Assembly: GCA_021208135.1 (NCBI GenBank)
Contig: JAJOKB010000046.1
Location: forward strand, 1 to 32,961
Length of the DNA stretch: 32,961 nt
Direction of reading: 5' to 3'
Source of the DNA: Verrucomicrobiota bacterium
Lineage (GTDB): Bacteria; Verrucomicrobiota; Verrucomicrobiia; Opitutales; Oceanipulchritudinaceae
The translations under genes were made by a program, and so were the position numbers. The notes under the pieces were generated by a model that did not search any database, was not told the origin of the DNA, and saw nothing but the letters and a program-made list of their open reading frames with translations. Each line of letters starts with the position of its first letter. The first letter of the stretch is position 1. Positions 2,781 through 26,737 of the stretch are shown here, one piece after another.

Positions 2781-4292
2781 TCAACGCGCGTACAAACTTT
2801 TCAATTCTCTCAAGTAAGCCCCGCTATCACGTTCCAGTATATCGAGTTGTGAACCCGTGCAACGCCATTGCCAATTGCCTTGTGCCTCGCCTGGAGTGTT
2901 CATGCGAGCGGGAGAACCAAGGCTGAGAAGGTCTTGCAGCGCCACCACGAACAGCTTGCTCACGGATGCATAGCCGGCGCGAATAAAGTCCCAGGGGACA
3001 TTGTCGCCCGGCACCCGCCAGTACCTGCGCATGAGATCCTTGGTGGCCTCAGGTTGGCTGTGATACCATTCCCAGCAGGTCGCATTATCGTGTGTTCCTG
3101 GGTACAGGACACTGTTGGGAATCAGATTGTGCGGCAGATAATCGCTGTTTTCGCCATCGAAGGCAAACTGCAGCACAGCCATGCCTGGAAGGCCTGTTTC
3201 TGCCAGTAATTTTCTCACCCCATCGGTGATCAAACCCAGATCTTCTGCGATCAGGCGTGCGCCGGGAATGCTTTTTTTGATTGCTTTGAAGAAATCCCAA
3301 TCCCGGTCCTGGCATCCAGGTGCCGTCCTTGGCGGTTTTCGCCGCTGCTGGTACAGACCAGTATTCGTCGAAGCCACGGAAGTGGTCGATGCGCACCACG
3401 TCGTACATGGTGAAATTGGCCTGCAAACGTTGCAGCCACCAACGGTAGCCATCTTTTTTGAGCGCCTTCCAATCAAACAAGGGGTTGCCCCACAGTTGAC
3501 CGTCAGCGGCAAAATAGTCCGGTGGGACACCGGCTACTGCGGTGGGTTTCAAATCCTTATCCAGTTGAAACCATTGCGGTTCAGCCCAGACGTCGGCGCT
3601 ATCCATAGCCACGAAGATAGGAATGTCGCCAATTATCCGTACGCCTTCCGCTTTGGCGTAGGTGCGCAATTTGTGCCATTGGCTGAAGAATTGGAATTGC
3701 AGGAACGCCTGCAGATCGCAGTCGCGCTGAATGGCTTCCTGCTCGAGCAGTAAGCAGGCTGACTTATAGTCGCGCTGTTCCGCTGGCCAACTGTACCAAG
3801 GCGCACCATTGTGGCGGGATTTAAGCGTGGCGAAGAGCGTGTAGGGCTGCAGCCAGGATTGATTTTCTGACTTAAAGGTTTCAAATTCGCGTGCACAGGT
3901 CGGCCTTTTGCAGTAATTTTCGTAGGCCAGGCGCAGTACTGGCCAGCGTCGCATCCACTGAGCCCCATAATCGACCTGATTGTTACTTAAATCTCTGAAA
4001 ATCAGTAAGTCTGATTCGTGCAGGTAGCCTTCACGCACGAGTTGCAACCAGATCAAGTCAGGTAGGGGTTGCCGGCAAAGGCGGAAAAACATTGATAAGG
4101 TGAATCGCCAAAACCAGTGGGTCCCAGCGGACACATTTGCCAATATTTAAAACCCAGATTGGCGAGGACATCGACAAAACGGTAGGCACCGCTGCCCAGG
4201 GTGCCAATGCCGGAGGGATCGGGCAAGGAAGTTGGGTGCAGGAGTACTCCGGCAGCGCGTTGATCCAGCCAGTTGAACAGAGGTTCTTTCAT
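2781..4292 (-). CDS. malQ: 4-alpha-glucanotransferase (amylomaltase), GH77, two frameshifts
   Basis: MalQ transfers alpha-1,4-glucan segments between maltodextrins in the cytoplasm. The reconstructed product is about 504 residues, the normal GH77 size. All hallmarks are present: the N-terminal GVLLHPTSLPDPSGIGTLG and [20 protein letters not shown] motifs, GDIPIFVAMDSADVW, the loop GVPPDYFAADGQLWGNP, the nucleophile Asp in VRIDHFRGFDEYW, the acid/base Glu in IAEDLGLIT, and the third acidic residue in GTHDNAT. The reading frame breaks twice: near 4055-4065, where a base appears to be lost after GNPYL, and at a CCC run at 3296-3298, where one base less joins WMPGPGL to DFFKAIKK. With the catalytic set intact and breaks at simple runs, this is probably a functional gene with sequence errors. 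It is transcribed divergently from the HU gene and is followed by the secreted PKD protein. The ATG at 4292 was chosen because it directly precedes the family N-terminus. Confidence 0.9.
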
Positions 4293-6811: not shown

Positions 6812-9622
6812 CTGCATTGAATCCGGCGGTCCTGAGTAGAGTAGATTGCCGCCAGCATCCCCTCCGCCCGGTCCCAGGTCGATGATCCAGTCGGCAAGCC
6901 TGATGAATTCTGTATTGTGTTCAATGACCACAATGGTGTTTCCCTGGTCGCGCAGTTGGAAAAGCAGATCCAGCAGGTGCTGAATATCCAACCAGTGAAG
7001 ACCAGTGGTGGGTTCATCGAGGATATACAAGGTTTCTCCTTGCACACCCTTGCTCAGCTCAAGGGAAAGTTTGAGGCGCTGAGCCTCACCGCCGCTCAAC
7101 GTGTTGGCTGCCTGGCCGAGTTTAAGATAGCCAAGTCCAACAGCGCGCAAGGTTTCCAGTTTGTGTTTGATTTTGGGAACTTTGGCAAAAAAATCGGCAG
7201 CCTGCTCAACCGTTAGGTTTAGCACATCGGCGATATTCAATCCTCGGTAGCGCACCTCCAGTGTTTCCCGATTGTAGCGCAGACCTGCGCACGAAGGACA
7301 CTCGGAGTAAACGTCTGCCAAAAAGTGCATGTCCAATTTAATGACACCATCGCCGGCGCATCGTTCGCAGCGGCCCCCGCGCATGTTGAAGCTGAAGCGT
7401 GTCGGCTTATATCCGCGGACCTTGGCCAGAGAGGTTTGGGCAAACAAGGCGCGTAAATCGTCAAATACCTTGGTGAAGGTGGCGGGATTGGATCTCGGAC
7501 TGCGTCCGATCGGTTGTTGATCCACAACCACCACACGACTGAAATGCTCCAGACCGTTGATGCCACCATGTGCTCCGGGAATATCGCGGCTGCGGTTCAG
7601 TTTCATGGCAGCGCTCTTTGCCAGAATGTCATTGACCAAAGTGCTTTTTCCGGAGCCGCTGACTCCAGTAACACAGATAAACAATCCCACAGGGAACTGA
7701 ACATCCATCGCTTTGAGATTGTGTTCAGAGGGTGATTTTACCACTATGGATTTCGCTGTTGGACGCAGTCGTCTGCCAGCAGCTTGCAGGTGCTTTTGGC
7801 CACTTAAAAAGGCCGCTGAAACGGATTTTGGGCAGGCCAATAAGGATGTTAAATTGCCGGCGTAAACGATTGAACCGCCTGCTGCACCTGCTCCCGGGCC
7901 GACCTCAACAATAAAATCGGCACCTTTCATGAATTCCGGGTCGTGCTCCACTACTACCACGGAATTACCCCTGTCGCGCAACCCCTGCAGCGCTAGTAGC
8001 AGGCGATAGGTATCCGCTGCATGGAGGCCGATGGTGGGTTCGTCCAGAATGTAGGTGATGCCTGTCAACTCCATGCCCAACTGGCTTGCCAGGCGGACCC
8101 GTTGCGCTTCGCCGCCACTCAATGAGTTGAATGTTCGTTGCAGCCCAAGATAACCAAGCCCAACTTCGATAAGGAAGTGTAACCGTTGCTTGAGTGCCGA
8201 ACAAATTTCAGGAAATAAATGATTCGGTAACTGCTCCAGGAAGTGCAACGCCGTATGCAAGTCCATGGCGTTAAACTCCTGATAGGAGAGTGTATTCAAC
8301 AATACATGCCGTGCCTCGGCACGCAGACCGGAGCCCTTGCAGTCCGGGCAGGTTGCCGAGTGTTGGTAGGCCATTAATCTCGCCCGCAAACCGTCGCTGC
8401 TGGTCGAGCGTTGGGTTTCGGCCAGGTCAGCGAGCACACCGCCAAAATGTCGCGGCTCTGGCAAGGATTTGCCGGCTTTTAGCTTGAATGCGAACAATCG
8501 TTCGGTGTCCCCATGCAGTATGAGGTTTCGTACCTCAGGATCGAGTTCCTGCCAAGGCAAGTTCGGATCGAAGGGAACTTGTTCCGAAAGCTGCTTGAGC
8601 ATGGCATTGCGCTGAATGATCATGCGCCTGGAACCCAGACGCCACGGTTTGACAGCCCCGTTGCGCACCGAAAGACTGCTGTCAGGCACCACCAGTTCGG
8701 GGGCAAAGCGCAATGTTTGGCCGAGTCCGCCGCAGGTGGTGCATGCTCCGTCCGCATGGTTATTGGAAAAAGTGCGTGGTGTGACAGGTGGGTAAACTGT
8801 ACCGCAATGACTGCAAGACAACTCTCTGCTCAAGGTTACCTCGCGCCAGCCTGCAGGCGAGTCCTTGTCCTCGACCAATGCCAGCGCACGGTTTTTTCCC
8901 TCGCGAAAAGCCAGTTCCAAAGAGTCGGCCAGTCGACTGCGTTGCTCAGATTTCAGAGCCAATCTATCAATGACCAAGTCCAACACGACTGCTTGATTTC
9001 CTGAAGGCAGTTGGTTGGCCTCCTCCAGATCGGTAATCAATCCGTTGATGCGCACACGTTGAAATCCCTTTTGTCTGAGATGCGGAAACTCACCCCTGAC
9101 AATGGATGGTTTGGCTGTCAGGTAATGACAGAGTAGCTGAACGCGTTTGCCCTGATAATCGTGCAAGAGTAAATCCAGGCAATCATCCAGGGTTCGCCTG
9201 ACGATGGGGTGGCCATCTTGCGGACAAAAGGCTTCTCCGGCAAATGCCCATAGCAGCCGAGCGTAATCGGCCACCTCCGAGACGGTGGCAACTGTACTGC
9301 GTGGGTTAGTTTGGTTTCCTGTACGTTGTTCGATCGCAATGACAGGTGACAATCCGTGGATAAAATCGACTTCGGGGCGGGGGATTTGTTCTAATACTGA
9401 TTTGGCTCGTGTGGACAGACTGTCGATGAATTTGCGGTAACCCTCGGCATACAACGTATCAAAAGCCAGTGAGGATTTGCCGGAACCACTGACGCCGGTG
9501 ATAACTACGAGTTGGTTGCGAGGCAACCGAATCTCAATGTTGCGCAGGTTGTGCTGACGAGCGCCTTTGATGTGAATTTCGGAATAGCCTCGGGACGGCT
9601 GACCTGAGCTATTATCTGTCAT
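6764..9622 (-). CDS. uvrA: UvrABC excinuclease subunit A
   Basis: UvrA is the damage-recognition ATPase of nucleotide excision repair. The 952-residue protein is intact and of typical UvrA1 length. It has two ABC modules: Walker [13 protein letters not shown] (about 43-54) and [13 protein letters not shown] (about 653-665), signature motifs [16 protein letters not shown] (about 501-516) and [15 protein letters not shown], and Walker [12 protein letters not shown] and [11 protein letters not shown]. Zinc cysteines are visible at 270/273/294/297, 425/428 and 752/755/775/778. The UvrB-binding region is retained. The sequence diverges from the enterobacterial type in places (for example the [22 protein letters not shown] region), so it may be a second, phylum-specific UvrA. 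Its ATG overlaps the malQ2 stop by 11 nt, implying translational coupling. Its 3' end overlaps the dtxR-like gene. Confidence 0.93.
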
Positions 9623-11129
9623 ACAACCAACCTAATTCAGCCAAATATCCGTGGGTGTTGACCAGAGAATTCCATTCATCCTGCTGGATGCGCCAGCTCC
9701 AATTTCCGCCGACAACTCCAGGTACATTCAAGCGGGCGCTGTTATCCAGAGCCAGCACATCCTGAAAGGCAATCACAGCCAATGCAGAGTTGCTGCGATA
9801 GGCACAACGAATCAAGTCCCAAGCAATGTCATTGCCATTGACTCTCAAGTAGCGCCTCACTTTGTCCTGTATCCAAGGTTCGCTGGTGTCATACCACGAC
9901 TGAATGGTTGAACTATCATGGTCGGTGGTGCAGATAACGGAATTGAACTCCATGAAGTGCGGCGCATGCGGACTCCGTCCCTTGCTTTGAAAGCCGTTTT
10001 GTACCAGCACGCACCCTGCCAGTCCCAGGGAATTTGCAAGTGTCCGGTTTTGACTGGATTCCCATTCAACATCTTTAGCCAAAAGTCGCAAAGGTGAGGC
10101 ATGATTGGAGAGAAAGTCAAATAAGGTGGCCCCGGGGACTTTGTGCCAAGCGCCATGGGCGGCACTGTCGCTGGCAGCGGGCACTTGCCAAACCTGGGAG
10201 AACATTCTGAAGTTATCCAGTATTTGGACATCGTGAATCTGGAGTCCGTGATGCAAACGCGAACGCCACCAGGAAAGCAATTCCTGTCCGCCATTATCCC
10301 AATCGTAGGCAGGTTGATGGCGGATACTGCCGAACGGCAGGCTGGCACTGGGAACCTCGCCAACCCAGAACTTTGGCTGTGCTTCGCCATCTACGCCGAA
10401 CAGGCTTGGGTGTTGCCAGACATCGGCGCAATCCATAGGTAAATGATGAGGAACCATGCCGACGATATGAACTCCTACATGGGCCGCCTTTTGCCGCAGC
10501 AGCCGGAATTGCCCAAACAACAAATATTGCAGCCAGGAATGAAACTCTTGTTCCTCCAGCATATTGAGTGTTAATCCAGCCTCACTCGCTGATGGGTAAT
10601 TGCGGTATTCCTGCGGCCAATCGTACCATGGTTTTTGCTGAAAGGCCTGTTTCAGGGCCATGAACAATGAGTAGGCTTCCAGCCAATCTTTGTGTTCGCT
10701 GGTGAATAAATGCAGCAACCCGTAGTTGGGGAGGTATGACAAATCCCGTTCACGGAAACGCCGCCAGGCCAAACGCAACAAAGGCATCTTCACAGCGTAC
10801 AGGCGACCGTAATCAACGCGCTGCGCCGGCAGGCGGTTTAATGGACTGAGTTCGCCCGGATGTAACAAACCCAATTGCGGCAGCACCTCCATGTCGATGA
10901 ACAGCGGATTGCCCGCAAAGGCCGATAATGTTTGGAAGGGCGAATCACCAAAGCCGGTTGGCCCGGTCGGCAGTAATTGCCAATAGCGCAATCCAGCGGC
11001 AGCGCAAAATTCAATCAACTTGTGTGCGTGTCTGCCAAGAACCCCAATGCCTTGTGTTCCAGGAAGACAACTCAAATGCAGGGATAAACCCGCGCCCCGA
11101 TCCTTTAGCCAAGTGTACTTACCACTCAT
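9612..11129 (-). CDS. MalQ-like GH77 paralogue with degenerate active site (probable pseudoenzyme)
   Basis: A full-length (505-residue), uninterrupted relative of 4-alpha-glucanotransferase. The fold signatures are kept: [50 protein letters not shown], and the C-terminal [15 protein letters not shown]. The active site is eroded. The nucleophile position keeps Asp305 (ILDNFRMF instead of RIDHFRGF) and the third acid is Asp405 (TDHDSST), but the acid/base Glu of the IAEDLG motif is Lys352 (LLAKDVEW). The loop GVPPDYFxxxGQxWGNP has become [17 protein letters not shown], and GDIPIF is GMVPHHL. By spacing, 305/352/405 match Thermus amylomaltase D293/E340/D395. Loss of the acid/base predicts no normal transglycosylation, so a binding, regulatory or structural role is inferred. 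Its start overlaps the lipocalin stop (ATGA) and its stop overlaps the uvrA start. Confidence 0.85.
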
Positions 11130-13522: not shown

Positions 13523-14013
13523 GAACAACAAGATTTTACGGGGGATGATTGGGACTCGAGGGCTGACATTTTATCGACGCGGCGTTGATGCCGTCCGCCT
13601 TCGAATTCAGCGGTCAGAAAGAGATCGACCATGCGGCAAGCCATGTGCGGTGTGGTATAAAGTTGGCCGAAGCAGAGGACATTGGTGTTGTTGTGACGTC
13701 GTGTGAGCTGGGCTTCTTCATCAAAGTGTACCAAAGCCGCACGTATGCCCGCAAATTTGTTGGCCGAAATGCTCATTCCAATGCCCGTGGTACAGCAGAG
13801 TACCCCGAAATCGGCGGCTCCACTTTGCACATCTGTGGCCACTTTGGCGGCATAGTCAGGGTAATCGACGCTCGATTTGGTAAGTGTGCCGTGGTCGATG
13901 ACTTCGATATTTTGGCTCTTGAAGTAAGCCAGCAAGGCCTCGCGCAATTCAAAGGCACCATGGTCGGCACCTAAACTGATGATGGGATTTTTCACAAAGT
14001 TGATTTGATCCAT
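13519..14013 (-). CDS. rpiB: Ribose-5-phosphate isomerase B
   Basis: Interconverts ribose-5-phosphate and ribulose-5-phosphate in the pentose phosphate pathway. The 164-residue product shows the RpiB/LacAB pattern: [34 protein letters not shown], the active-site Cys region [29 protein letters not shown], and the family C-terminus [17 protein letters not shown] followed by about 12 extra residues. It overlaps the phosphatase stop upstream by 22 nt and the glyA start downstream by 4 nt (ATGA), so the three genes are likely translated in a coupled way. The gene is intact. Confidence 0.93.
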
Positions 14014-14468
14014 TGGATGATTGAAGGAATGGCTTCGGCCAGACTGTCTCTGGTTTCAAGGTATTCTTGCAGCGGGCCGCCATAAGGGTCTGGTACGCGG
14101 GCGTCTGTGCTATCCAAACGCTCGCGAAACAGCAGGACAGGTTTGTTCAGGTCTGGAAAGTAGGCAAACAATGTGTCGCGATGACCTTCAGTCATGGCGA
14201 GAATCCAATCGGAGGCGCGCAACAATTCATCCGTCACTTGTTGAGAGCGGTGCTGGGTCAGATCCAGATGCACGCGTTGCAGGGCTGTGACGGCATTCCG
14301 GGATGCCGGCATGCCATCACCTGCAGCGACACCTGCAGAAACCACCTTAATGCTCTTGAGGGGTTCAGGTTCTGCTGCCAGAGCGTGCGCAAGCAACTTC
14401 TCCGCCATAGGGGAACGGCAGGTGTTGCCGGTGCACACTATTAAAATTTGCCGCTGCGCACTGTCCAT
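13992..14468 (-). CDS. Low-molecular-weight phosphatase, protein-arginine-phosphatase (YwlE) type
   Basis: A 158-residue LMW protein phosphatase. I chose the ATG at 14468 because the family begins about ten residues before the P-loop. The longer open frame upstream adds 74 residues that read back into the intergenic region and transglutaminase end without homology. The P-loop is CTGNTCRSPMAEKLL (Cys12, Thr16, Arg18), and the general acid is the Asp of VPDPYGG. In Bacillus YwlE the Thr at the corresponding place (CTGNTCRS) selects phospho-arginine, while tyrosine phosphatases carry Ile or Val there. This residue and the adjacency to rpiB and glyA, as in Bacillus, favour arginine phosphatase activity. 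No arginine kinase (McsB) is in the window. Confidence 0.87.
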   Translation of the reverse strand: MDSAQRQILIVCTGNTCRSPMAEKLLAHALAAEPEPLKSIKVVSAGVAAGDGMPASRNAVTALQRVHLDLTQHRSQQVTDELLRASDWILAMTEGHRDTLFAYFPDLNKPVLLFRERLDSTDARVPDPYGGPLQEYLETRDSLAEAIPSIIQWIKSTL

Positions 14469-14568
14469 AAACTTCTCAGCATGTCCGTGCAGGCAGCGTT
14501 GTAAAGTGCGCAGTGAAGAACTTTTTGGGTTCTGAAAAAAATCCTGATTGAGCAGGCGGGCTGCGAAC

Positions 14569-15447
14569 TCAATCGGTTGGAGTGACCGTGACCTCGATAT
14601 CAAGGGTTTGTTCACCGCCACCAAAGACTGCGCCTCTGACCAGACTGACATCACTATAATCGCGACCTCTGGCGATGGTGATATGCTCATCGTTCACCAG
14701 CTTGTTATTGGTGGGATCCAGATCCACCCAACCCAATCCCGGCACGAAGATGGACACCCAGGCATGCGAGGCGTCGGCTCCAATCAGTCGTGGTTGTCCC
14801 GGTGGGGGTGTGGTCAGAATATAGCCACTCACATAACTGGCAGGGAGTCCGCAAGAGCGGATTGCAGCGATCATAAAGTGGGCGAAATCCTGACAAACGC
14901 CCTTTCTTTCCTTAAAAACAGTCGCCACGGGAGTGGATACATCGGTGGCGTCCGGGTCGAATGTGAAGTTTTTGAAAATGTAGGAGTTGAGTTCCAACGC
15001 AGCTTCCAGGAATTTGCGATCACCGAGGAAAATTTTCGCGGCGAATTCCTCAATGGACGGGTCGCGGGGAATGAGCGGAGATGCGTAAATGAACTGTTCG
15101 GCGAGGTTGGTTTCGCGGCGCGTGTTGGAGTCAATAAACGATTTGACCTCATCGCAAGTGGGGGAGAGCTCAGGCATCGGTGACTCAATGGGTAGAATAC
15201 TCACGTCTGAGTGCACTTCCAACAGCAGTTCAGAATGCTGCTGGGGCACGGAAAACAAGTGCATGGTATTGCCAAAAAAGTCCACTCTGGTCGATAAATC
15301 GCTGGGTTGAGGATGAATTTTCAGGTCAAAGGAATGACAGGTCTGCCTGGTGGAACTGCTGGGTTCCAGGTGAGCACTGTGGTGCGAAGCAGCCACGGGG
15401 AAGGAGTAGTTGTAGCGCGTAATGTGATGGATGTGGTAGCGAGCCAT
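14569..15447 (-). CDS. Transglutaminase-like cysteine protease/peptidase
   Basis: A 292-residue cytoplasmic protein (no signal peptide) with the bacterial transglutaminase N-terminal beta domain (MARYHIHHITRYNYSFPV, typical 'H.T.Y.Y..PV') and the papain-like core. The catalytic triad is visible: Cys185 in RKGVCQDFAHFM, His228 in GADASHAWVSIF, and Asp in WVDLDPTNN (about 242-244). Proteins of this class sit next to circularly permuted ATP-grasp and alpha-E proteins in many genomes and are thought to hydrolyse or transfer peptides made by the ATP-grasp ligase (Iyer, Aravind and colleagues). Here the gene starts 28 nt after the ATP-grasp/alpha-E gene, which supports a shared operon. The gene is intact. 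Confidence 0.9.
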   Translation of the reverse strand: MARYHIHHITRYNYSFPVAASHHSAHLEPSSSTRQTCHSFDLKIHPQPSDLSTRVDFFGNTMHLFSVPQQHSELLLEVHSDVSILPIESPMPELSPTCDEVKSFIDSNTRRETNLAEQFIYASPLIPRDPSIEEFAAKIFLGDRKFLEAALELNSYIFKNFTFDPDATDVSTPVATVFKERKGVCQDFAHFMIAAIRSCGLPASYVSGYILTTPPPGQPRLIGADASHAWVSIFVPGLGWVDLDPTNNKLVNDEHITIARGRDYSDVSLVRGAVFGGGEQTLDIEVTVTPTD

Positions 15448-15475
15448 GGATATGCGGGCAAGGGCCAGGGAGGAT

Positions 15476-18026
15476 TTAACGCGATTGCAGGCGATGTGTG
15501 CTCAGGGTCGCTTTGGCGTGAGCGAAGTAATGTTGGGCAAGAAACTCCGACAGACTATAAAAGTCCTCCACCATTTCGTACAAAAACGAATCCAGTCTGG
15601 CGTGGAGACCCGTACTGTCTTTTTCAGTAAGTTCAGTGGCATCATTTAATCCGAGACTGCTGAATAACTTAATAGCCAGTCGGTCAATTGCGGTCGCTGG
15701 GCTGTCGCTGCGGCGGTGTGGCAAGTCCCTGATATGAGCCCGCAATTGATCTACTTGAAATTGCACTGAACGCGGGTTTGCCGGATCAAAAAACCAGTAG
15801 ATCCAACACCGGAGCAAGATTCATTTGCGTGAGGTAACGCCGACGATAGGTAATGGTGCTGTCGGCGCAAATCAGCAACTTGTGCAGGATACCATCCATG
15901 TGTGGCACCTCGCGCTCGAGTGAGCCGCGCAGGAGCGTACACAGATTTACGCCACGTTCCATTCTGCGGCCAAGGTCCAGAAAGATCCAACCGTAGCCTC
16001 TGGTCATGTTCTCCATAGCCAGGCCGCTGATGCCAGCTAAGACAATCAAGGTTTCGTCGACGAATCCAAACAAATCAACACCAGCGTTGCGGGCATTGCC
16101 TCTGGTAGTGAGACTTTGAAAGCGCCCAAGCATTTGCCAGGTATCGTTCGACAACCGTTCCTTGACGCTGCCGGCAGTTCGTTGAACGTGTTTTACCAGC
16201 GCCTGCAGACTGCCGGGATTATCCTGTGAGCTGATCACCTCGGCAAGCAATTGATCCCACTGTTCGAACGACAACGTGTCAGCACCACCCTCATTGATTT
16301 CGGCGATCCTTTCCTCGCTGAGCAAGGTTTGCAAAATGGGCAGCAGCTGAGACAATGAAGAAACTTCGATTTCCTCAGCGACAGTATTGAGTAGTAAACG
16401 CGCTATACGGGCGTGGTTCTCAGCGCGTTCCATGTAGCGACCTAACCAATACAAGTTGTCCGCCACTCTGCTGGGCAAGTCCGGAGCCGCGCGATGTATT
16501 TGCACCGAACCCATCAAGTGGGCCAATGGAGCTGGTTCTTCGGCTTTGACGTCGCGCGGGGCCAGGACCCAGGTATCTTTGCTGCCTCCTCCCTGTTGCA
16601 TGGAGACCGAGTATGGATGACTTTCTGCGCCGATGCGCGTCAAGCCACCTGGCATAAGCGAATAGGAACCGTGGGCGGCGACCATGAATACGCGCAGCAG
16701 AAAATTGCGCGGTTCCAATCCATTGGAGCCAAAGACAGGCGTTGTTGCCTGCGATACCAACTCCTGTGCACACCACATGGATGGTTGTTTTTTAATTCTC
16801 GATCTGGCATCCTCCAGTTGCGCTGCGCTCATCATTGGACCAAACAGACTGGGCTGATTGGAACCAAGGAAAGTCGGTTTTACCACAAGCTCCGGCAGGT
16901 GTTCCAAAACATATTGCAGTTCAGCCTCTTGCCCACACCACCAAGTTGCCACGGAGGGCAGTTTGAGAGGTTCGCCCAGCACGCGTTTGCTCAGATTTGG
17001 CAGAAATGCCATCAATGCAGGCGTCTCACAAAGACCCGCGCCCAAAGCGTTGCGACCGCCACATTCCCTAGCCGGACCGCATTGACCAGACCAGGGACTC
17101 CCAACAGGGAATCATCCCGCAGCTCCAAGGGGTCGCAGTACACTGAATCAACGCGCCGGATAATGACATCGACCGGCTGAATCCCGCTGATTGTTTTCAA
17201 AAACACCTGATTATTGCGCACGGTCAAGTCGGCACCTTCGACCAGTGGATAGCCCAGATTCCGTGCCAGGAACGATTGCTCAAAGTACGTTTCATTGGCC
17301 GGTCCGGGGGTCAAATAAACGATGCGCGGATTGTCCTTGTTGCGCGGTGCCAGGGCGGCAAAGGATTCATTGAATTTTCGAAAAGGAGCGACAGTCGCTG
17401 CACGCCGGTGCGGCGAAAATGGTCTGGCATGACCCGTCCGCTGATGAACCGGTTTTCCATCGCGTAACCGATGCCAGATGAAGCCTCCACCCGGTCCGCG
17501 AGCACCCACCAGCGGCCATCGGGCGAACGTGCCAAATCTGCGGCGTACACGTGAATAAAGCGGCCTTTGCGCGGCTGGTATCCGTGTAAGGGCGCAGAAA
17601 GCCCGGATTGCCCAATACCAATGGTGGGGGCAACACGCCGTATTCCAGTAAATTCTGACGACCGTAAGCGTCCTGGAGGATGTAATTGAGCAGAAAAACG
17701 CGTTGGGCGAGGGCATTTTCGAGCCACAACCACTCGCTGTGGTCGAACACCACCGGCAATAAATCCATCATCCATGGTCTGTTCGGTCCGTCCGGATCAT
17801 CATAAACGTTGTAGGTAATGCCGTTGTCACGGATGATTCTGCGCAGTTGTTCCTCGCGTTGACGCAGATCTTCCATGGATCCGTTGCGCAGACTTTCTGC
17901 CAACGCACTCCATGGTTTGCGGATGTTTCCCTTGGCGTCCACACATTCGTCATAATATCCATCCGTCCCACGATAGGAGCCAAACAATTCTGCTGTGTTA
18001 ACTGTGTGTGTGGTGGTCGTGGGCAT
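15476..18026 (-). CDS. Circularly permuted ATP-grasp protein fused to alpha-E domain (four frameshifts)
   Basis: The reconstructed protein is about 850 residues. The first ~480 residues form the circularly permuted ATP-grasp module (DUF404/DUF407 type): GTDGYYDECVDAKGNIRKPW, RRIIRDNGITYNVYDD, VYAADLARSPDGRWWVLADR, IVYLTPGPANETYFEQSFLAR, DVIIRRVDSVYCDPLELR, GAGLCETPALMAFLPNL, and an ELVVKPTF lysine. The rest is the helical alpha-E domain (SRVADNLYWLGRYMERAENHARI ... RGYGWIFLDLGRRMERG). Such enzymes are predicted to ligate amino acids to a peptide or small molecule; alpha-E and a transglutaminase partner accompany them. Frame breaks lie at 17590-17592 (one C missing in the coding strand), 17381-17384 (one T missing), 17050-17051 (one A missing), and 15788-15793 (one T extra). 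Each repair yields family sequence. No stop separates the two halves, so I infer a real fusion. Confidence 0.87.
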
Positions 18027-18088: not shown

Positions 18089-19000
18089 TCACACCCGTGC
18101 ATAATCGCCAATTTCTCCCTTGAGAATCGGCTTCATAACGATGTCCGGGTCAGGATTGGGGATAGCAGACAATAGCCCCTTGGTGTAAGGGTGGCGCGGA
18201 TTGTCGAAAATTTCCTTAACATCGCCAAATTCGACTATTTTGCCCTGATACATCACAGCCACTTCATCGCAGATGTGTCTGACGACACTCAGGTCGTGGG
18301 CGACAAAAATGTAGGTCAATTGAAATTCGTCCTGCAAATCCATCAACAGATTGATCACCTGGGCTTGTACGGAAACGTCCAGTGCCGAAACCGCTTCATC
18401 GGCGACGACTAAAGAGGGTCTCAGGATGAGCGCGCGGGCGATGCCGATGCGTTGTCTTTGACCGCCGGAAAAGGCATGCGGATAGCGTTGCATGTGGATG
18501 GGTTTCATGCCCACTTTTTGCAGCATTTCCGCAACTAAATCCCGCCGCTCGGCGCGTGATCCGACATCGTGAATGACCAGTGGTTCACCCACAATATCGC
18601 CAACGGTCATTCTGGGATTTAGGGATGCAAATGGATCCTGGAAAATCATCTGCATTTCTTTGCGCAAAGGCTTGAGTTCGCGAGGCTTTAGCTTTGCCAT
18701 GTCAACAATTCCCCTGGCAGATTTGAATAAAATCTCCCCACTGGTAGGATCGATGGCCCGCAGAATTGAGCGGGCACAGGTGGTTTTTCCTGATCCACTT
18801 TCACCGACGATTCCCAGGGTGCGTCCGGGTTTGAGGTCAAAGCTGACGTCGTCCACGGCGCGGACGGTGTCCACCTGTTTTTTGACCAGTCCACTGCTGA
18901 AAATCGGGAAAAATTTGCACAGGTTGCGCACTCGCAACAGGCATCCGTCCATTGGATCCGCTGAACCCGTGTTGCCTTTCTCAGGGGTGAATGTACTCAT
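18089..19000 (-). CDS. oppF: Oligopeptide/oligosaccharide ABC transporter ATP-binding protein (OppF type)
   Basis: A 303-residue ABC ATPase that powers the import complex on the cytoplasmic side. It has Walker [20 protein letters not shown]-loop [14 protein letters not shown], signature [15 protein letters not shown], Walker [13 protein letters not shown] and H-loop [10 protein letters not shown]. The C-terminal [17 protein letters not shown] segment is the conserved oligo_HPY region of Opp/Dpp ATPases. The spacing [21 protein letters not shown] after the N-terminus is typical of OppF rather than OppD. The start overlaps the oppD stop by 4 nt (ATGA). It is the last gene of the transporter. 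The 62 nt to the ATP-grasp gene hold no clear terminator. Confidence 0.93.
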
Positions 19001-20018
19001 GCCAGTAGTTCGGGTTGTAGTTCAGAAGGGTGCATGGAAACCTCGCGTCCATCTTTGAGGCGGATTAAAGGTTTAGGTGTAAGAAGGTCGTAATCGCCAA
19101 CGATACTGTCGATGGTTGGCAGACGGTCGCGCACGTGTTCCACGCTGGGAATGGCAGCCAACAGACCCTTGGAGTAGGGGTGAACCGGCGTTTTTAAAAT
19201 CTGTCGCACCGTGCCTTTCTCCAGGATTCTGCCGCCAAACATGACATTTACGTAATCTGCGGTCTGTGCCACGACCCCCAGATCGTGGGTGATGAAGATG
19301 ACACTGGTGCGCATTTCGCGCTGTAGATCCTTAATCAGCTCAATGATTTGAGCCTGGATGGTCACGTCCAGAGCTGTGGTCGGTTCGTCTGCTATCAGTA
19401 TTTCCGGTTTGCACACCAGTGCCATGGCAATCACCACGCGTTGCCGCATACCGCCTGACAGTTCGTGTGGGTATTGTCTTAATCGGGTTTCAGGCTTGGG
19501 GATTCCCACCTTGGCGATCATCTCAATAGCCCTGCGTTCAGCCTCTTTTTGGCTGACATTCTGATGCAGCAATATGGCCTCACAGATTTGATTGCCGATA
19601 GTGTGCACAGGACTGAGTGCGGTCATAGGCTCTTGAAAGATCATGCTGATAAAGCCGCCCCGTACCTTGAACAGCAAATCATCCTTTCAGTCAAGGAACT
19701 GATTTCGATGGGCTTGCCGTTTTTCGGATAAAAGGTGATTTTTCCGCCAGTGATTCTTCCGGGTTCCTGAATCAGCTTCAAAATGGTGTAGGCGGTGACG
19801 CTTTTTCCGGATCCGCTCTCGCCGACGATGGCCAGGATACTCCCTCTTTTCATCTCGAAGGAAATACCTCGCACCGCTTGAACTGCACCCTCCTCGGTGA
19901 AGAAAGTCACCTCCAGGTCCTCGACCTTTAACACAATATCGTCCGCACTGTTGCCCACAGATCCTTGAACCTGGGATGCGTTAGCGGAAGTCTTCTGTAA
20001 TGGATCTTGCTGTTGCAT
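18997..20018 (-). CDS. oppD: Oligopeptide/oligosaccharide ABC transporter ATP-binding protein (OppD type, one frameshift)
   Basis: The second ATPase of the transporter, about 340 residues when reconstructed. Motifs: Walker [20 protein letters not shown]-loop [17 protein letters not shown], signature [15 protein letters not shown], Walker [14 protein letters not shown]-loop [10 protein letters not shown], and the oligo_HPY region [14 protein letters not shown]. The frame breaks between SSLTER and [10 protein letters not shown] at a CC pair (19683-19684 on the plus strand); a third base would restore it. It begins 7 nt after the oppC stop and ends with an ATGA overlap with oppF. An N-terminal ~27-residue polar extension precedes the ABC domain. 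Confidence 0.92.
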
Positions 20019-20024
20019 GATGGT

Positions 20025-21146
20025 TTATCTGGAGCTGTATGGGTCAGCGGCATCGCGCAGTCCGTCACCCAGATAGTTAAAGGCGAAAACCGTGATAATA
20101 ATCATAAATACCGGCATCAGTAGCCATGGATAGGCAGATACCACCTGTAAATCCAGACAGTCCTGTAATAGCACGCCCCAACTTACAATGGGCGGTCGCA
20201 GTCCAAGACCCAGAAAACTTAGGCTGGTTTCTGCCAGAATCATGCCCGGGATACTTAAGGTGAGCGATACGATGATGTGACTGGTAAAGCCGGGCAATAA
20301 GTGCCGGAAAATGATGCGACCATGACTGGCACCCATGAGGCGGGCCGCAACGGCATAGTCTTCCTCGCGCAATGAAAGGATTTTGCCACGAACAACACGT
20401 GCCAGCCCAGTCCAACCCAGTGCGCTCAGAATCACTGTTATCATAAAATACACGGTCAGCGGACTCCAGGTGGCAGGCAGCACAGCAGCCAAGGCCATCC
20501 ACAGCGGCAACCCTGGAAACGCATTGATGATTTCGATCGCTCTCTGGATCAAATTGTCAATTCTGCCGCCCGCATATCCGGAAATACCACCCAACAGCAG
20601 GCCGAGCACAAAGGTGAGTACGATGGAGATCAAACCGATGGATAGACTGATGCGGGAACCATAAATCAGTCTGCTGAAGAGATCATGACCGTATCGGTCC
20701 GCGCCCAGGAAAAACCAGACTGGTTGTACCTCACCATCATCGAGCGGAGTGAAGCGGTCCCGATTTACCCCGAAGAAATGCCTGTCCCAGGTGAACAGAC
20801 CCCACATGGTATAGCTGTCGCCGCGCACAAAAAATCCAAGCGGAACTTTTACATCAGTACGCAGTACATAAAAGGTGCGCAAACTGACAGGATCGGTCTT
20901 ATTGACCAAACCGTGGACATAAAATCCCTCTGAAAAGCTGAATTTCGGCATCTGAGGTGGTGCCCACATGTAGTCGTAGTTGCGGGTGTCCTTGGACATG
21001 GGTGCCAAAAATTCGGCAAAAATTGCCATCAGGTATAGCACGATGAGGATAAACATCGAGGCCACCGCCAGTTTGTGGCGGGAGAAGCGCAGTCGGATCA
21101 ATTCCCATTGCGAGAGAGCCCCTTTTTCGATGGTGGGTGCAGTCAT
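20025..21146 (-). CDS. oppC: ABC transporter permease (OppC type) with large extracytoplasmic insert
   Basis: An inner-membrane permease of about 373 residues. I chose the ATG at 21146, whose A is shared with the stop of the preceding permease (TAATG); a longer frame upstream adds 14 residues inside that gene. TM1 is about HKLAVASMFILIVLYLMAIF. An insert of roughly 110 residues follows (from FLAPMSKDTRNYDYMW to DDGEVQPVWF), longer than in classic OppC. The core then starts at FFLGADRYGHDLFSRLIYGS, a hallmark. The EAA loop EEDYAVAARLMGASHGRIIFRHLLP contacts the ATPases. The gene ends DGLRDAADPYS, as usual for OppC/DppC. It is intact. Confidence 0.93.
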   Translation of the reverse strand: MTAPTIEKGALSQWELIRLRFSRHKLAVASMFILIVLYLMAIFAEFLAPMSKDTRNYDYMWAPPQMPKFSFSEGFYVHGLVNKTDPVSLRTFYVLRTDVKVPLGFFVRGDSYTMWGLFTWDRHFFGVNRDRFTPLDDGEVQPVWFFLGADRYGHDLFSRLIYGSRISLSIGLISIVLTFVLGLLLGGISGYAGGRIDNLIQRAIEIINAFPGLPLWMALAAVLPATWSPLTVYFMITVILSALGWTGLARVVRGKILSLREEDYAVAARLMGASHGRIIFRHLLPGFTSHIIVSLTLSIPGMILAETSLSFLGLGLRPPIVSWGVLLQDCLDLQVVSAYPWLLMPVFMIIITVFAFNYLGDGLRDAADPYSSR

Positions 21147-22202
21147 TAGCGTGACCCTCCTTCCATGCGGATCCTTGGATCCAACCACAGCAGTAACAGG
21201 TCGGATACCAATGTCCCCATTACTCCGAGCAGTGAGAAGATCATTAACATTGAGCCAGCGAGATACATATCCTGGGAAAGCAATGAGGTTAACATCAATG
21301 GACCTATCGTTGGCAGGCTTAGCACCAGCGCGACAATGGCACCACCTGAAAGTAGGGCGGGGAAAATGCCGCCTATCCCGGAAATAAACGGATTGAGCGC
21401 CAGCCGCACCGGATACTTCATTAGCAGTTTGAAGGGACGCACGCCTTTGGCTCTGGCTGTGGTTACATAGGGTTTCTTGAGTTCATCGAGCAGGTTGCCG
21501 CGCATCACGCGAATCATACCTGCGGTGCTGCCAGTGGCTATCACAATGATAGGGATCCAAATGTGTTGCAACAGATCGACGACTTTGCCCCAAGACCAGT
21601 TCGGCTGTGTAGCGTATTCGGGCGAGAAGAGCCCCGATACACTCATGCCAAACCATTCCCACGCGCCGTACATCAACAGTACAGCGAGCAGGAAATTAGG
21701 AATACACATCCCGATAAAGCCAATAACGGATGTTATATAATCGCCTATCGAATACTGGCGAACGGCGGAGTAGATGCCAATCGGCAGGGCGATTGCCCAG
21801 GTAAACAGAATAGTTCCAAGTGAAATCAACACGGTCAGCATCACCCGTTCGCCGATGATCGAATTGACCGATTGTTTGCTTTCCATGGATCGGCCCAAAA
21901 ATCCTTGCAGCAGACCCAGATCTTCGCCGTCGAAGCTGAAGAACCAATAAACCCCGGCCCAGCGCAGGTATTTTTCCACTACACCTGCCTCCAGATGAAA
22001 CATTTCGGTGAGCTGATCGATTTCCTGCTGATCGGCACCAGTCCCTGACTCTTCGAGCTGCATGATGCGAAAGGTCACATAATCACCGGGGGGGAAGTTG
22101 AATGATGACAAAGGAGATGACCGATATGATGAACAGAGTGGGGACCATGATGATCAGTCGTCTGCCAATGTAGGGGTGACGATAACCAATCAGAACAAGC
22201 AT
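21146..22202 (-). CDS. oppB: ABC transporter permease (OppB type), possibly the C-terminal half of a fusion (one frameshift)
   Basis: Inner-membrane permease with the OppB pattern: IGRRLIIMVPTLFIISVISFVII (TM1), PPGDY, an extracytoplasmic region containing EVVEKYLRWAG-like sequence, ERVMLTVLISLGTILFTWAI, and the EAA loop YVTTARAKGVRPFKLLMKYPVRLALNPF. The frame breaks at a run of seven G (22088-22094); six would join VIIQLPPGDYVTF. The conservative start is the ATG at 22202 (MLVLIGYRHPYIGRR), which shares one base with the stop of the solute-binding gene (TGATG). An alternative reading makes this region continuous with the solute-binding protein; see findings. It lies upstream of oppC with a 1-nt overlap. 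Confidence 0.88.
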
Positions 22203-24459
22203 CAAGCCAAAAGCTGCCCCAAATGAGAATGCGCACCAGCTGGCCGATGTCGAATCCTGAGCGCGTTGCTGTGGCGTCGGGGCAGAGTGCGCATGGGCGT
22301 AATGGTGCGCAACTCGGCGAGCATGGCGTTGATGACTGCCGGGGTGTCTGCCTGGCCATCAAAAAAGTAAGTCTCGATACCGGTGTTGCCGGGGGAAATA
22401 AAATCCCAACTGTAAACCGCGCGCTCAGGTACGTTGCGCACAAAATCCCGCAGTGGAATAATGCGTGGCGGAGAGTTGGACACTGAAATGGTCCACAGGT
22501 TTTCTGCTGCCAGCAAAAGGTTCTCCCGGAATATTTCGACCTTTTCGTCGAAAGCTATGGTCGCACGGGTGTGTTCGAACACTTCCATGGTCCTGCGATA
22601 GGTCGAATCAGGGTGGGGTGCAATGGCACCGGGATGTTCGCGCGATTCCTCCGTGTCAAACAATCCGCCAGCCAGAAACCAGTTGGCATATCCCCTGGCC
22701 CAGTCCGAATGCGTCGATGATGGTACAAACATGCGCGGTTCAAGAATCGGCAAGAATTCACCGTTACCTGACCAAACGTTAAAATCATGAATGCGTGCAT
22801 CGGTTTCCACCCTGAACAAGTTGCCACTGCGCTCGCGCGCGGTGACGCGGATCCCGATCTGTTCCCAGTAATCGGTAATGGTCTGTGCGGCACCACCACC
22901 GGTTCTGCCTACCACATTGAGAAAGAAGTGCATGCGCGAACCATCGGCAAAAGTGCGGAACCCTTGGCGATCCCGCCGATCCAGGCCGAGTTCATCCAAC
23001 AAGGCATTAGCGCGGTCAGGATCATATTCAACAAATGCGTAGTACAGTTCCGGGGTGAAGAAGGGCGAATCCCTTGGCGGCGCAGCCTGCGCTGGTTCCG
23101 CCAGTCCATTGTATTCGGCGCGAATCACATTTTCGCGGTGAATGGCCAGCGACAGTGCTTGCCGGAATCTGGGTTCGCGCAACAGGTGATACTTGTTTTC
23201 AGCTTCGCGGTCGCCTGGCGTAAAGCGGCGGTTTTGGTTGGGCTGGATTAGGAAAATGGATCTTTCGCCCATCATCCAATGGCGCAGTTGCATTCTGTTG
23301 CGCTCGAGGTTTTCCATCAGCAAGCTGTATTGCCCCACTTCCACGCCACTGGTTTGCAAAACCACATTGCCCTGCATGGCATTGACTGCGATCAGGTCGG
23401 GAGATTTATCCTCAAAGAAAATCCGGTCCAGATAAGGCAATTGCCGTCCCTCAGTGTCTACCGCGAAGTAATAGGGGTTGCGCACCATGGTCAGCGGCAA
23501 ATTGCGTTTGTGTGTGCGCACGATCCATGGGCGCAGTGACGGCATTTCCGGGTTGAGGAAGGTGCGCACGTAGAAATATACCTGGCGCGGACGCTGCAAA
23601 TTTGCGCTCTGCATGACGCTGGCAATCAACTCAGGATCACCGATTGTCGGATGAAAACGACTTAGGTAATGCGCCGGTCGATCGGTCAAATCCATGCCGG
23701 GGAAAGAGGCAAGTCGTTCCAAAAACAAACCATTGGGTACCGGAAAACGAAACCGGATCGTAAAGGCATCGACTTTTTCTATGGTGCCCACCTGATCCTG
23801 AATACGCAGGATTTCGGGGATACGGCCGCCCATGATGACCGGATCTTTCACCTCGTGTTCATACCAGTACATGATGTCATCAGCGGTAAACGGATGGCCG
23901 TCAGACCAACGCATGCCGCGCCGCAGGAAAAAAGTGTATTCCGTGCCATCTTCATTCACTTCCCACCCTCGGGCCACATGCGGCACGATGGGATATCCGG
24001 CATGACTCCAGCGAACCAGAAAAGTATAAGACAGACGGTTCGGCACCAGCCCCCACAGCGAACCCATGCCGGAGACATAATAGAGCCAGGTGCCTCCATA
24101 TCGTCCATTACCTTCAACTCCCTCCATGACCACTGGTTCAGGGCCGATCCGTTCCTCCAGTGGTGGCAAGCTGCCTTCACGCACCAGTTCACTCAACAGG
24201 GCGATTCGTGCCTGGGCCACCACGCAGCCGTCGACCCTTCACTGTAGTCAACCTCGCGGAATACCGTAATGGGATTCGTCGTGTCGACGCGCACATCGCG
24301 CAGGGACTCAGCCATGGCTACGCGCTCAGGATCAAAGGCAGGAACTTCTGTCCGCAGTTCAGGAGTTAACACCCAGCCCCAGAATGCAATCATTGCAAGC
24401 AGTGCTAGGCCCGCCAGGAAAACCTTGGCGGTGAAAATTAAAAATTCCTTATATTTCAC
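22202..24459 (-). CDS. ABC transporter family 5 solute-binding protein, membrane-anchored (frameshifted)
   Basis: Captures the substrate for the Opp-type importer outside the inner membrane. It starts at a GTG (24459) with an N-terminal membrane anchor or signal (FLIFTAKVFLAGLALLAMIAFWGWVL) and no lipobox. SBP_bac_5 features follow: YGGTW, VARGWEVNEDGTEYTFFLRRGMRWSDGHPFTADDIMYWYE, MVRNPYYFAVDTEGRQLPYLD, and EPRFRQALSLAIHRENVI. The YGGTW opening is shared with oligosaccharide-binding members of this family, so a sugar substrate is plausible but unproven. One base seems missing at a CCC (24235-24237): restoring it gives DYSEGVDGCVVAQARIALL. The tail after ITPMRTL is Arg/His-rich (PRRHSNALRIRHRP) and looks out of frame, so the true C-terminus is uncertain and may continue into OppB. 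Confidence 0.88.
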
Positions 24460-25593: not shown

Positions 25594-26737
25594 TTATCCT
25601 TGTCCCTGCATTTGACGCAGGTATCGACGTGCCACCTCCAGTGGAACGGTATTGTTAGCCGTTCTGCCCTTGGATACGCAGTAAATGATGTATTGTTCAA
25701 GACCCAGAATATTATTGGGCCAATCGGATTTTCTGATCAGGTCGTACACATCGGGTGAAAACTGTGTTTGGCGGGCCTGCGGGGCTATCGCCAGCGAGTT
25801 TTTCAGAATATGTGCAACAAGATCTTCAAGATCTTCCATTCTCTCCTGCAAAGTTGGCAGGTGCAGCACGGTGTCCATCAGATAATACGCGAATTCGGTG
25901 CTTACTGAACCAGCCACCATTTCTTCTTCCAGATGAACTCCAGCCAGACAAATCAGCCAGCCTTGGGCGGTTTGCTTGGCAAATACCTGGGTCAGTTGAG
26001 TTTGTAATTCCTGATCAATCTTTTCCACATACTCCAGCACCAGGGTGCCACCGAGTGCGGACTGGAGAATGCCTCCGCCGATGCCGTTGCCATAGATATC
26101 TTCCTCGATTTCCAAGGTGGATTTCTCGGCGCAGTTATAGACCACGAACGGTTTGTCGTGACCGCAGCAAACCAGATGCAAGGTTTCGGCCAGTTGCAGT
26201 TTGCCCACACCTGCTTCGCCCTCAATCAGGATTGGCGGCCTTCGACCCGACTTCTGCAGTTGAAGCAGCGCATGTTTTACTTCCGCAATGTGTGGGGATT
26301 TGCCCGCCAGTGCGAGGCACGATTCCCACGTAATGGTACCACTGCCGGCTGCACTGTTCATATTGGCACTGGTTTCTTCCTGACCACGTGCGGCCAGGCC
26401 CCGCTGAATGGATTCCACAAACTCAGCGATGCGCAGGGGTTTGCGCAGATAATCAAATGCGCCTGCCCGCAGTGCTTTCAACGCATTGGCCTTGGAAGGT
26501 ATTCCGTCGGTAATAATCAGCAGAGTGTCCAGTTTTTTTGCTCTGCAGTTCATCTGCCAGATCCATACCGCCATTACTCAGGTCAGCCAGCACAATGTCG
26601 ATACGCTCGGCCTTGCATTGTTTGGCAGCGTCTTTGCAGTCACCGGCAGTGAAAACCTTAAAGCCCATCGGTGACAGCACGGCGGACAATGCCTCGCGCA
26701 CACCGCTGGCAGGGTCAATAATCAGAATATTAGCCAT
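25594..26737 (-). CDS. NtrC-like response regulator with degenerate AAA+ domain (one frameshift)
   Basis: About 380 residues. The receiver domain (1-120) has acidic Asp8 in ILIIDPASG, phospho-acceptor Asp52 in IVLADLSNGG, and the conserved Lys in YLRKPL. A sigma-54-activator-type AAA+ domain follows but is eroded. Walker A is GEAGVGKLQLAE, with Leu after the Lys. Walker B is GGTLVLEYVEKI where GGTLFLDEI is normal, so the DE pair is lost. The GAFTGA loop is absent (IYGNGIGGGILQSALGG). WPNNILGLEQYI still matches WPGNVRELEN. No Fis-type helix-turn-helix follows. It probably cannot activate sigma-54 promoters and may act through protein contacts. The frame breaks at seven T (26533-26539); six join LQSKK to LDTLLIITDG. 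Its start overlaps the GDSL hydrolase stop by 8 nt. Confidence 0.82.

Follow-up and report, generated by a model that had tools for sequence, protein, structure and literature searches.

The subject of this study is a pair of adjacent genes in a DNA stretch of 32,961 nucleotides from a Verrucomicrobiota bacterium of the order Opitutales (GCA_021208135.1, contig JAJOKB010000046.1; here the window, G000:C4:1-32961), whose genome assembly (G000) comprises 119 contigs and is 74.5% complete. The first gene, which we term F, encodes a circularly permuted (CP) ATP-grasp domain followed by an Alpha-E domain, and the second, TG, situated 28 nt downstream on the same strand, encodes a transglutaminase-like protein (Table 1); an earlier note made from the letters of this DNA had given the same coordinates, strand and spacing. 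Pfam searches run on the reading frames separately recovered CP_ATPgrasp_2 in F as four consecutive pieces covering profile positions 1-64, 49-130, 123-236 and 237-373 of 374, and thereafter Alpha-E (PF04168) as two pieces covering positions 1-213 and 213-294 of 294. TG matched Bact_transglu_N (E 5.6e-25) and Transglut_core (E 2.1e-22). These matches to F and TG are far beyond chance. At an E-value of 0.01 Pfam reported only CP_ATPgrasp and Alpha-E in the pieces of F, with no amidase domain among them, and at 1e-10 no NCBIfam model matched F, TG, or the stand-alone and TG-DUF2126 proteins described below.

The last ATP-grasp piece and the first Alpha-E piece share one open reading frame (ORF), with 51 codons between them, and no stop separates the two domains in the sequence. 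Hence the fusion can be read without any frame repair, and while the earlier note correctly saw both domains in one reading frame, the mending of indels that it thought necessary for this is not needed. Both ER motifs of Alpha-E (GRYMER and GRRMER) are present in frame, and 146 of the 151 residues invariant in six intact relatives are kept in F; the remainder comprises four substitutions (S86, F207, L392 and L533 in the numbering of relative L048) and the first methionine, which is not covered. Neither an interruption between the domains nor a loss of the ATP-binding residues, which the note had named as grounds for abandoning its view, has thus appeared. In TG, the complete Cys-His-Asp set that it had reported (Cys185, His228 and Asp244) is invariant in 10 of 10 aligned TG proteins, and we take these residues to be the catalytic triad of the family. 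By sequence TG also resembles the structures 3isr and 6g49. Judged on these domains and residues, F and TG are almost certainly members of a widespread CP-ATP-grasp/Alpha-E/transglutaminase amidoligase system, in a version without detected Anbu, the proteasome-type peptidase. The gene pair is real but common in bacteria, and the system is known and uncharacterized.

Table 1. Features of the window, with positions counted from its first letter
Feature	Positions	Strand	Basis and remarks
F, fused CP_ATPgrasp_2 + Alpha-E gene	18026-15476	minus	Pfam on pieces, frame map against intact relatives, invariant residues
Single open frame spanning the domain junction (last ATP-grasp piece 17051-16632, first Alpha-E piece from 16478)	15786..17111	minus	Pfam, one ORF
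Segment with predicted Mg/ATP motif DLARSPDG...LADR...SSGIGYAMENR	17380..17592	minus	Translation and alignment; motif Asp and Glu kept, metal role predicted
TG, transglutaminase-like protein (Bact_transglu_N + Transglut_core)	15447-14569	minus	Pfam; 292 aa, intact; Cys185, His228, Asp244
Oligopeptide-type ABC transporter, directly upstream of F	18089..24223	minus	Pfam; 62 nt before F
SBP_bac_5 of the transporter	22202-24223	minus	
Permeases of the transporter	21146-22111 and 20025-21188	minus	
ATPases of the transporter	18997-20018 (two frames) and 18089-19000	minus	
Low-molecular-weight phosphatase (LMWPc), downstream neighbor	13992..14693	minus	Stop-to-stop range, gene start uncertain

An intact relative of F (L080) was modeled from 61 sequences, which remained after 74 of 79 fused ORFs had been taken by length and thinned below 85% identity, and the resulting model has a mean pLDDT of 88.9 and a pTM of 0.88. 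Its ligase half aligns best with 3n6x (Z 44.5, rmsd 3.2, 446 residues aligned), a putative glutathionylspermidine synthase of Methylobacillus flagellatus that has the same CP-ATP-grasp domain by sequence (E 3.6e-82); this 474-residue chain matches the ATP-grasp part of F only. Glutathione and homoglutathione synthetases follow with Z of 20-24, YgiC with 22.5, YjfC and Cp1B with 21.5 each, and the glutathionylspermidine synthetase/amidase chains with 19.1-20.7. The modeled ligase half has the ATP-grasp synthetase fold. The Alpha-E domain, modeled alone (pLDDT 90.1), gave no confident structural match, the best Foldseek hit having an E-value of 0.25. The top VIA-align hit, a cytochrome bd subunit (Z 10.1, rmsd 7.4), falls below the Z expected by that tool for helical bundles, and hence we neither claim nor exclude any family for Alpha-E from its fold.

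Related loci number at least 549 and are spread over many phyla. The best 80 of these, from named genomes, were analyzed further (the named loci), and going by record titles their hosts include Opitutales, Acidobacteria, Planctomycetes, Bacteroidetes, Latescibacteria and Proteobacteria. A fused frame of more than 600 aa is present in 79 of the 80 (four judged by length and tblastn coverage, their Alpha-E profile match falling short of 1e-10), and the remaining one (L157) is cut by a contig end; the fusion is not an unusual state. TG comes within 1.5 kb after F in 75 of the 77 named loci where this could be assessed (exceptions L102 and L122), DUF2126 occurs somewhere in 61 of 74, and all five components are found in 24 of 74, among them the Pelagicoccus loci L082 and L085. 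In 17 of these 24 the genes for ATP-grasp, Alpha-E, TG-DUF2126, F and TG succeed one another in this order along a single strand. A second set of 55 genomes comprised the source genome of the window and relatives of the same family or order. Here Alpha-E is present in 26 genomes and the fused frame in 20, at 22 loci that include the broken one of the window and one cut by a contig end (G013). Every one of the 20 genomes with a fused gene also has a separate Alpha-E and a stand-alone ligase, six further genomes have the separate Alpha-E alone, and at 20 of the 21 loci that could be assessed F is followed by TG (exception G037; G033 is cut). Across the phylum Alpha-E was seen in 117 of 383 genomes among the matches listed, and all 41 listed genomes with a second, weaker Alpha-E match in a frame of at least 827 aa, the frame length being the indicator of fusion at this scale, also show a separate match. 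Our literature search returned no paper on DUF2126 and none covering two of Rv2409c, Rv2410c and Rv2411c.

In the source genome itself, a stand-alone ATP-grasp gene with Alpha-E lies on contig C37 and a TG-DUF2126 gene on contig C78, both broken by frame changes; thus the pair in the window is one part of a larger, dispersed system. The same CP-ATP-grasp, Alpha-E and TG-like families are encoded in Pseudomonas putida (PP_2685-2688) and in Burkholderia cenocepacia (I35_5080-5083), the latter with an additional large TG-like protein. In contrast to these, the system of the window has both ligase domains in one protein, extends over three contigs, and shows no Anbu. The absence of a proteasome-like peptidase that the earlier note had remarked on is borne out by the lack of any match to PF00227 (the proteasome-type family of Anbu) in this 74.5% complete genome, window included. 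PF00227 was matched in only one of the 55 genomes (G039) and in none of the other 54, and the missing Anbu is therefore the rule among the genomes searched rather than a local loss. This search can probably detect Anbu, because it finds a match in Synechococcus, whose group has no HslV (PMC5666114).

The fused proteins of the 55 genomes fall into two types by their mean identity to the protein of the window: type A, at 43-47% and including the window, and type B, at 26-32%; L039 is included in this comparison. Type A comprises eight loci in eight genomes (G000, G010, G011, G012, G018, G019, G027 and G045), all of which keep Asp170 and Glu183 (L048 numbering), and the same eight are the only ones of the 55 with a one-protein TG-DUF2126 (that of G000 split by a frame change). 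In all 13 type B loci examined (L055, L057, L056, L051, L058, L045, L049, L053, L042, L047, L050, L059 and L079) Asp170 is replaced by Asn, Gln or His, and Glu183 by Gln or His; the fused piece of G013 lacks the motif region and its type was not judged. Eight other genomes, of type B apart from the unjudged G013, carry a divergent DUF2126 whose frame, 716-827 aa long, lacks the TG part, and at least in G002, G004, G013, G036, G048 and G054 a TG-type gene stands just before it (e.g. L047:10467-13453). All 61 named type A proteins keep Glu183, and 58 keep Asp170, but only 41 have retained Lys376. In an alignment of stand-alone ATP-grasp proteins with 14 rows, of which the G002 row is in a wrong frame, the piece from the source genome and 11 others keep both acidic residues. 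Asp170 and Glu183 are predicted to bind magnesium. Changes to the conserved Arg, Asp, Glu and Asn of Cp1B cost this enzyme most of its activity (PMC12568646), the residue-by-residue match of Cp1B to F being a proposal of our own. The loss of both residues in 13 of 13 loci suggests that type B is a pseudo-ligase, which may regulate or scaffold the stand-alone ligase. As a separate observation, the stand-alone ATP-grasp of G023 (L062:8128-9555), a genome without a fused copy, has Ala in place of Glu183.

F is interrupted at four places by frame changes (near 17590, 17385, 17050 and 15790), which the closest intact relatives place alike. Four of them in 2.55 kb allow for a decaying gene, and this density, higher than the average of the genome, counts against a working enzyme. 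If F were a decaying gene that does nothing in this genome, the splitting of the partner genes on C37 and C78 would fit too; we nevertheless hold this to be unlikely, because nearly all invariant residues are kept, TG is intact, and frame switches occur genome-wide, even RpoN, which the genome encodes, being split by one. A scan with a codon model trained on the source genome, which may be less sensitive in relatives, counted 62 switches that do not resemble gene boundaries over 295 kb of coding sequence on 20 other contigs (0.21 per kb), as against 21 in 348 kb of the relatives' loci (0.06 per kb). Five named loci of Opitutales or Puniceicoccaceae type gave 3 in 73 kb (0.04 per kb). The scan undercounts, since of the four changes in F it recovered two as such switches, took a third to be boundary-like and overlooked the fourth. 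The frame changes in F are more likely due to sequence error than to decay.

The chances appear evenly poised that F and TG build and release an amide-linked small compound. In this mechanism 1) the ATP-grasp half would use ATP and Mg to activate a carboxylate as acyl phosphate and join it to an amine, on the model of glutathione synthetase, YgiC/YjfC and glutathionylspermidine synthetase; 2) Alpha-E would position the substrate or a partner subunit; 3) the TG-like cysteine enzyme would hydrolyze or transfer the amide; and 4) the product would probably be a short peptide, or a conjugate of peptide and amine, that does not derive from a ribosomal precursor. The ATP-grasp protein of Yersinia releases phosphate from ATP (PMC6376114). 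Glutathionylspermidine synthetase/amidase (2io7 and others) and the peptide-spermidine ligases YgiC/YjfC have the fold of the ligase half of F, and the former, with its ligase beside an amidase, offers a functional parallel to F and TG; however, identity to these enzymes is only about 10-14%, and the partner of F is a separate protein of the transglutaminase fold. The comparison is consistent with F and TG working like glutathionylspermidine synthetase/amidase without belonging to its family. Other systems, of Pseudomonas, that encode an ATP-grasp enzyme with a TG-like protein (RloABC) or a peptidase (RimK/RimB) differ in using a membrane-bound inactive transglutaminase and an aspartic peptidase, and the available text describing them (PMC12239564) does not mention Alpha-E.

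The earlier note had spoken of a peptide-tagging or peptide-synthesis system. Its general part, an amide ligase encoded with a TG, stands and is of the kind predicted in PMC5666114, PMC6376114 and PMC3597751; tagging fares less well. In that alternative F would join an amino acid or peptide to proteins, with TG attaching or removing it, as might be expected from two amide-active enzymes side by side and as hypothesized for the related Anbu operon (PMC6376114). The same source calls these hypotheses unconfirmed and reports that Anbu did not interact specifically with any other protein of the operon, and PF00227 is lacking in nearly all the genomes searched. A comparison of neighborhoods for a small substrate ORF, which the note had proposed, gave no conserved candidate near the tested clusters: the 1712 small ORFs formed clusters spanning at most four loci in the best eight clusters. 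This search left out nine loci, including both members of the pair L082 and L085; the loci left out here and in the flank tallies below are near duplicates judged by eye, the closest fused proteins being 80-99.8% identical. One cluster of small ORFs covering 25 loci consisted of G+C-rich, low-complexity frames and was judged a chance grouping. A genome-encoded tag or precursor thus gains no support, and we regard tagging as unlikely.

The proposed release of a small amide-linked compound by F and TG can be set in a physiological context, as homologs are strongly induced by nitrogen limitation in Pseudomonas and Burkholderia. The targets of sigma-54 and NtrC in B. cenocepacia include the DUF404/407, DUF403 and both TG genes (PMC5491218), PP_2686-2688 of P. 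putida are induced under nitrogen limitation (PMC7801951), the PP_2688 promoter responds to nitrogen (PMC8050072), and in marine metagenomes the families co-occur with domains of urea metabolism (PMC3597751). We scored as sigma-54-like any site with at most two mismatches from 300 nt before to 100 nt after a gene start guessed as that of the longest ORF. Such sites precede 17 of 23 stand-alone ATP-grasp starts in relatives, compared with 17 of 232 control starts taken from the relatives' loci (three of the former 17 lie at +1, +1 and +60), and 16 of 67 operon starts in the named loci as against 23 of 449 controls; these counts overstate independence since the loci are related. The stand-alone ATP-grasp gene has a TG gene upstream of it in G005 and G011. 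The C37 operon of the source genome (L060, upstream of 8652, minus strand) has a site without mismatches at -82 and one with a single mismatch at -155; none was found at C78. It is likely that the system serves nitrogen limitation. A fuller scheme, which we offer tentatively as one possibility, is a nitrogen-starvation pathway of Opitutales and relatives in which three amide ligases (ATP-grasp + Alpha-E, TG-DUF2126 and fused F) and two TG-like enzymes would make an amide-linked compound not described so far, and would do so without any precursor encoded in the genome, with an active fused form that pairs with the one-protein TG-DUF2126 and a pseudo-ligase form without both predicted magnesium ligands. 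The literature found names no product of the system in its available parts; the pairing with the stand-alone ligase, the match of type A with TG-DUF2126, the sigma-54-like sites and the pseudo-ligase paralog name the partners and the growth condition for finding it.

Several points weigh against this interpretation, beside the frame changes of F: 1) F has no known product, substrate or activity, and its Alpha-E half has no confident structural relative. 2) The cleavage of amides may not be the task of TG, which could cross-link proteins. 3) The PP_2685 promoter does not respond to nitrogen (PMC8050072), and PP_2686-2688 still show 14- to 20-fold induction when rpoN is mutated, the wild type reaching 11- to 15-fold (PMC7801951, Table 2), with urtA likewise still induced in the mutant (PMC7801951). 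Hence, nitrogen limitation is supported, but strict dependence on sigma-54 is not. 4) No sigma-54-like site was found at the starts of the substrate-binding protein (SBP) gene, F or TG in the window, which holds 28 matches to the pattern with 28.1 expected, and only one of 14 separate fused operons of relatives has one. Therefore we argue for sigma-54 control of the partner operon only and not of F; a sigma-54 promoter at the locus in the window was considered and rejected.

The transporter genes directly upstream of F raise another alternative, namely that the pair serves the oligopeptide transporter, on the same strand, by modifying or trimming imported peptides as a nitrogen source. Transporter genes indeed occur near F and TG in certain relatives: OppD/OppF-type genes directly upstream of F in G033 (L079:2019-3445), which belongs to another family, as in the window; SBP and permease genes, with DUF2126, after F and TG in G036, and similar genes near the pair in G054; and Urt-like ABC transporter genes (Peripla_BP_5, BPD_transp_2) downstream of TG-DUF2126, F and TG in G010 (L044:52-5854). 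In the 80 named loci, however, components like those of the window are rare: the substrate-binding protein was seen once (L083), the permease never, and the ATPase, which is of a generic family, five times. Tallies of flanking ORFs, limited to the nearest two of 110-899 aa to either side, may include antisense frames and left out seven loci. They showed no conserved flanking partner, the best families accounting for 3 of the 123 ORFs downstream and 3 of the 102 upstream. Linkage to a transporter was accordingly rejected as a general rule, and we give little credence to this alternative to a released amide-linked compound. The LMWPc gene on the other side of the pair is probably unrelated to F and TG. 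Further upstream, beyond the transporter, a sigma-54 interaction domain protein is encoded on the same strand (25594-26574), and elsewhere the window contains two 4-alpha-glucanotransferase (GH77) genes, at 2781-4143 (split by a frame change) and 9612-11129.

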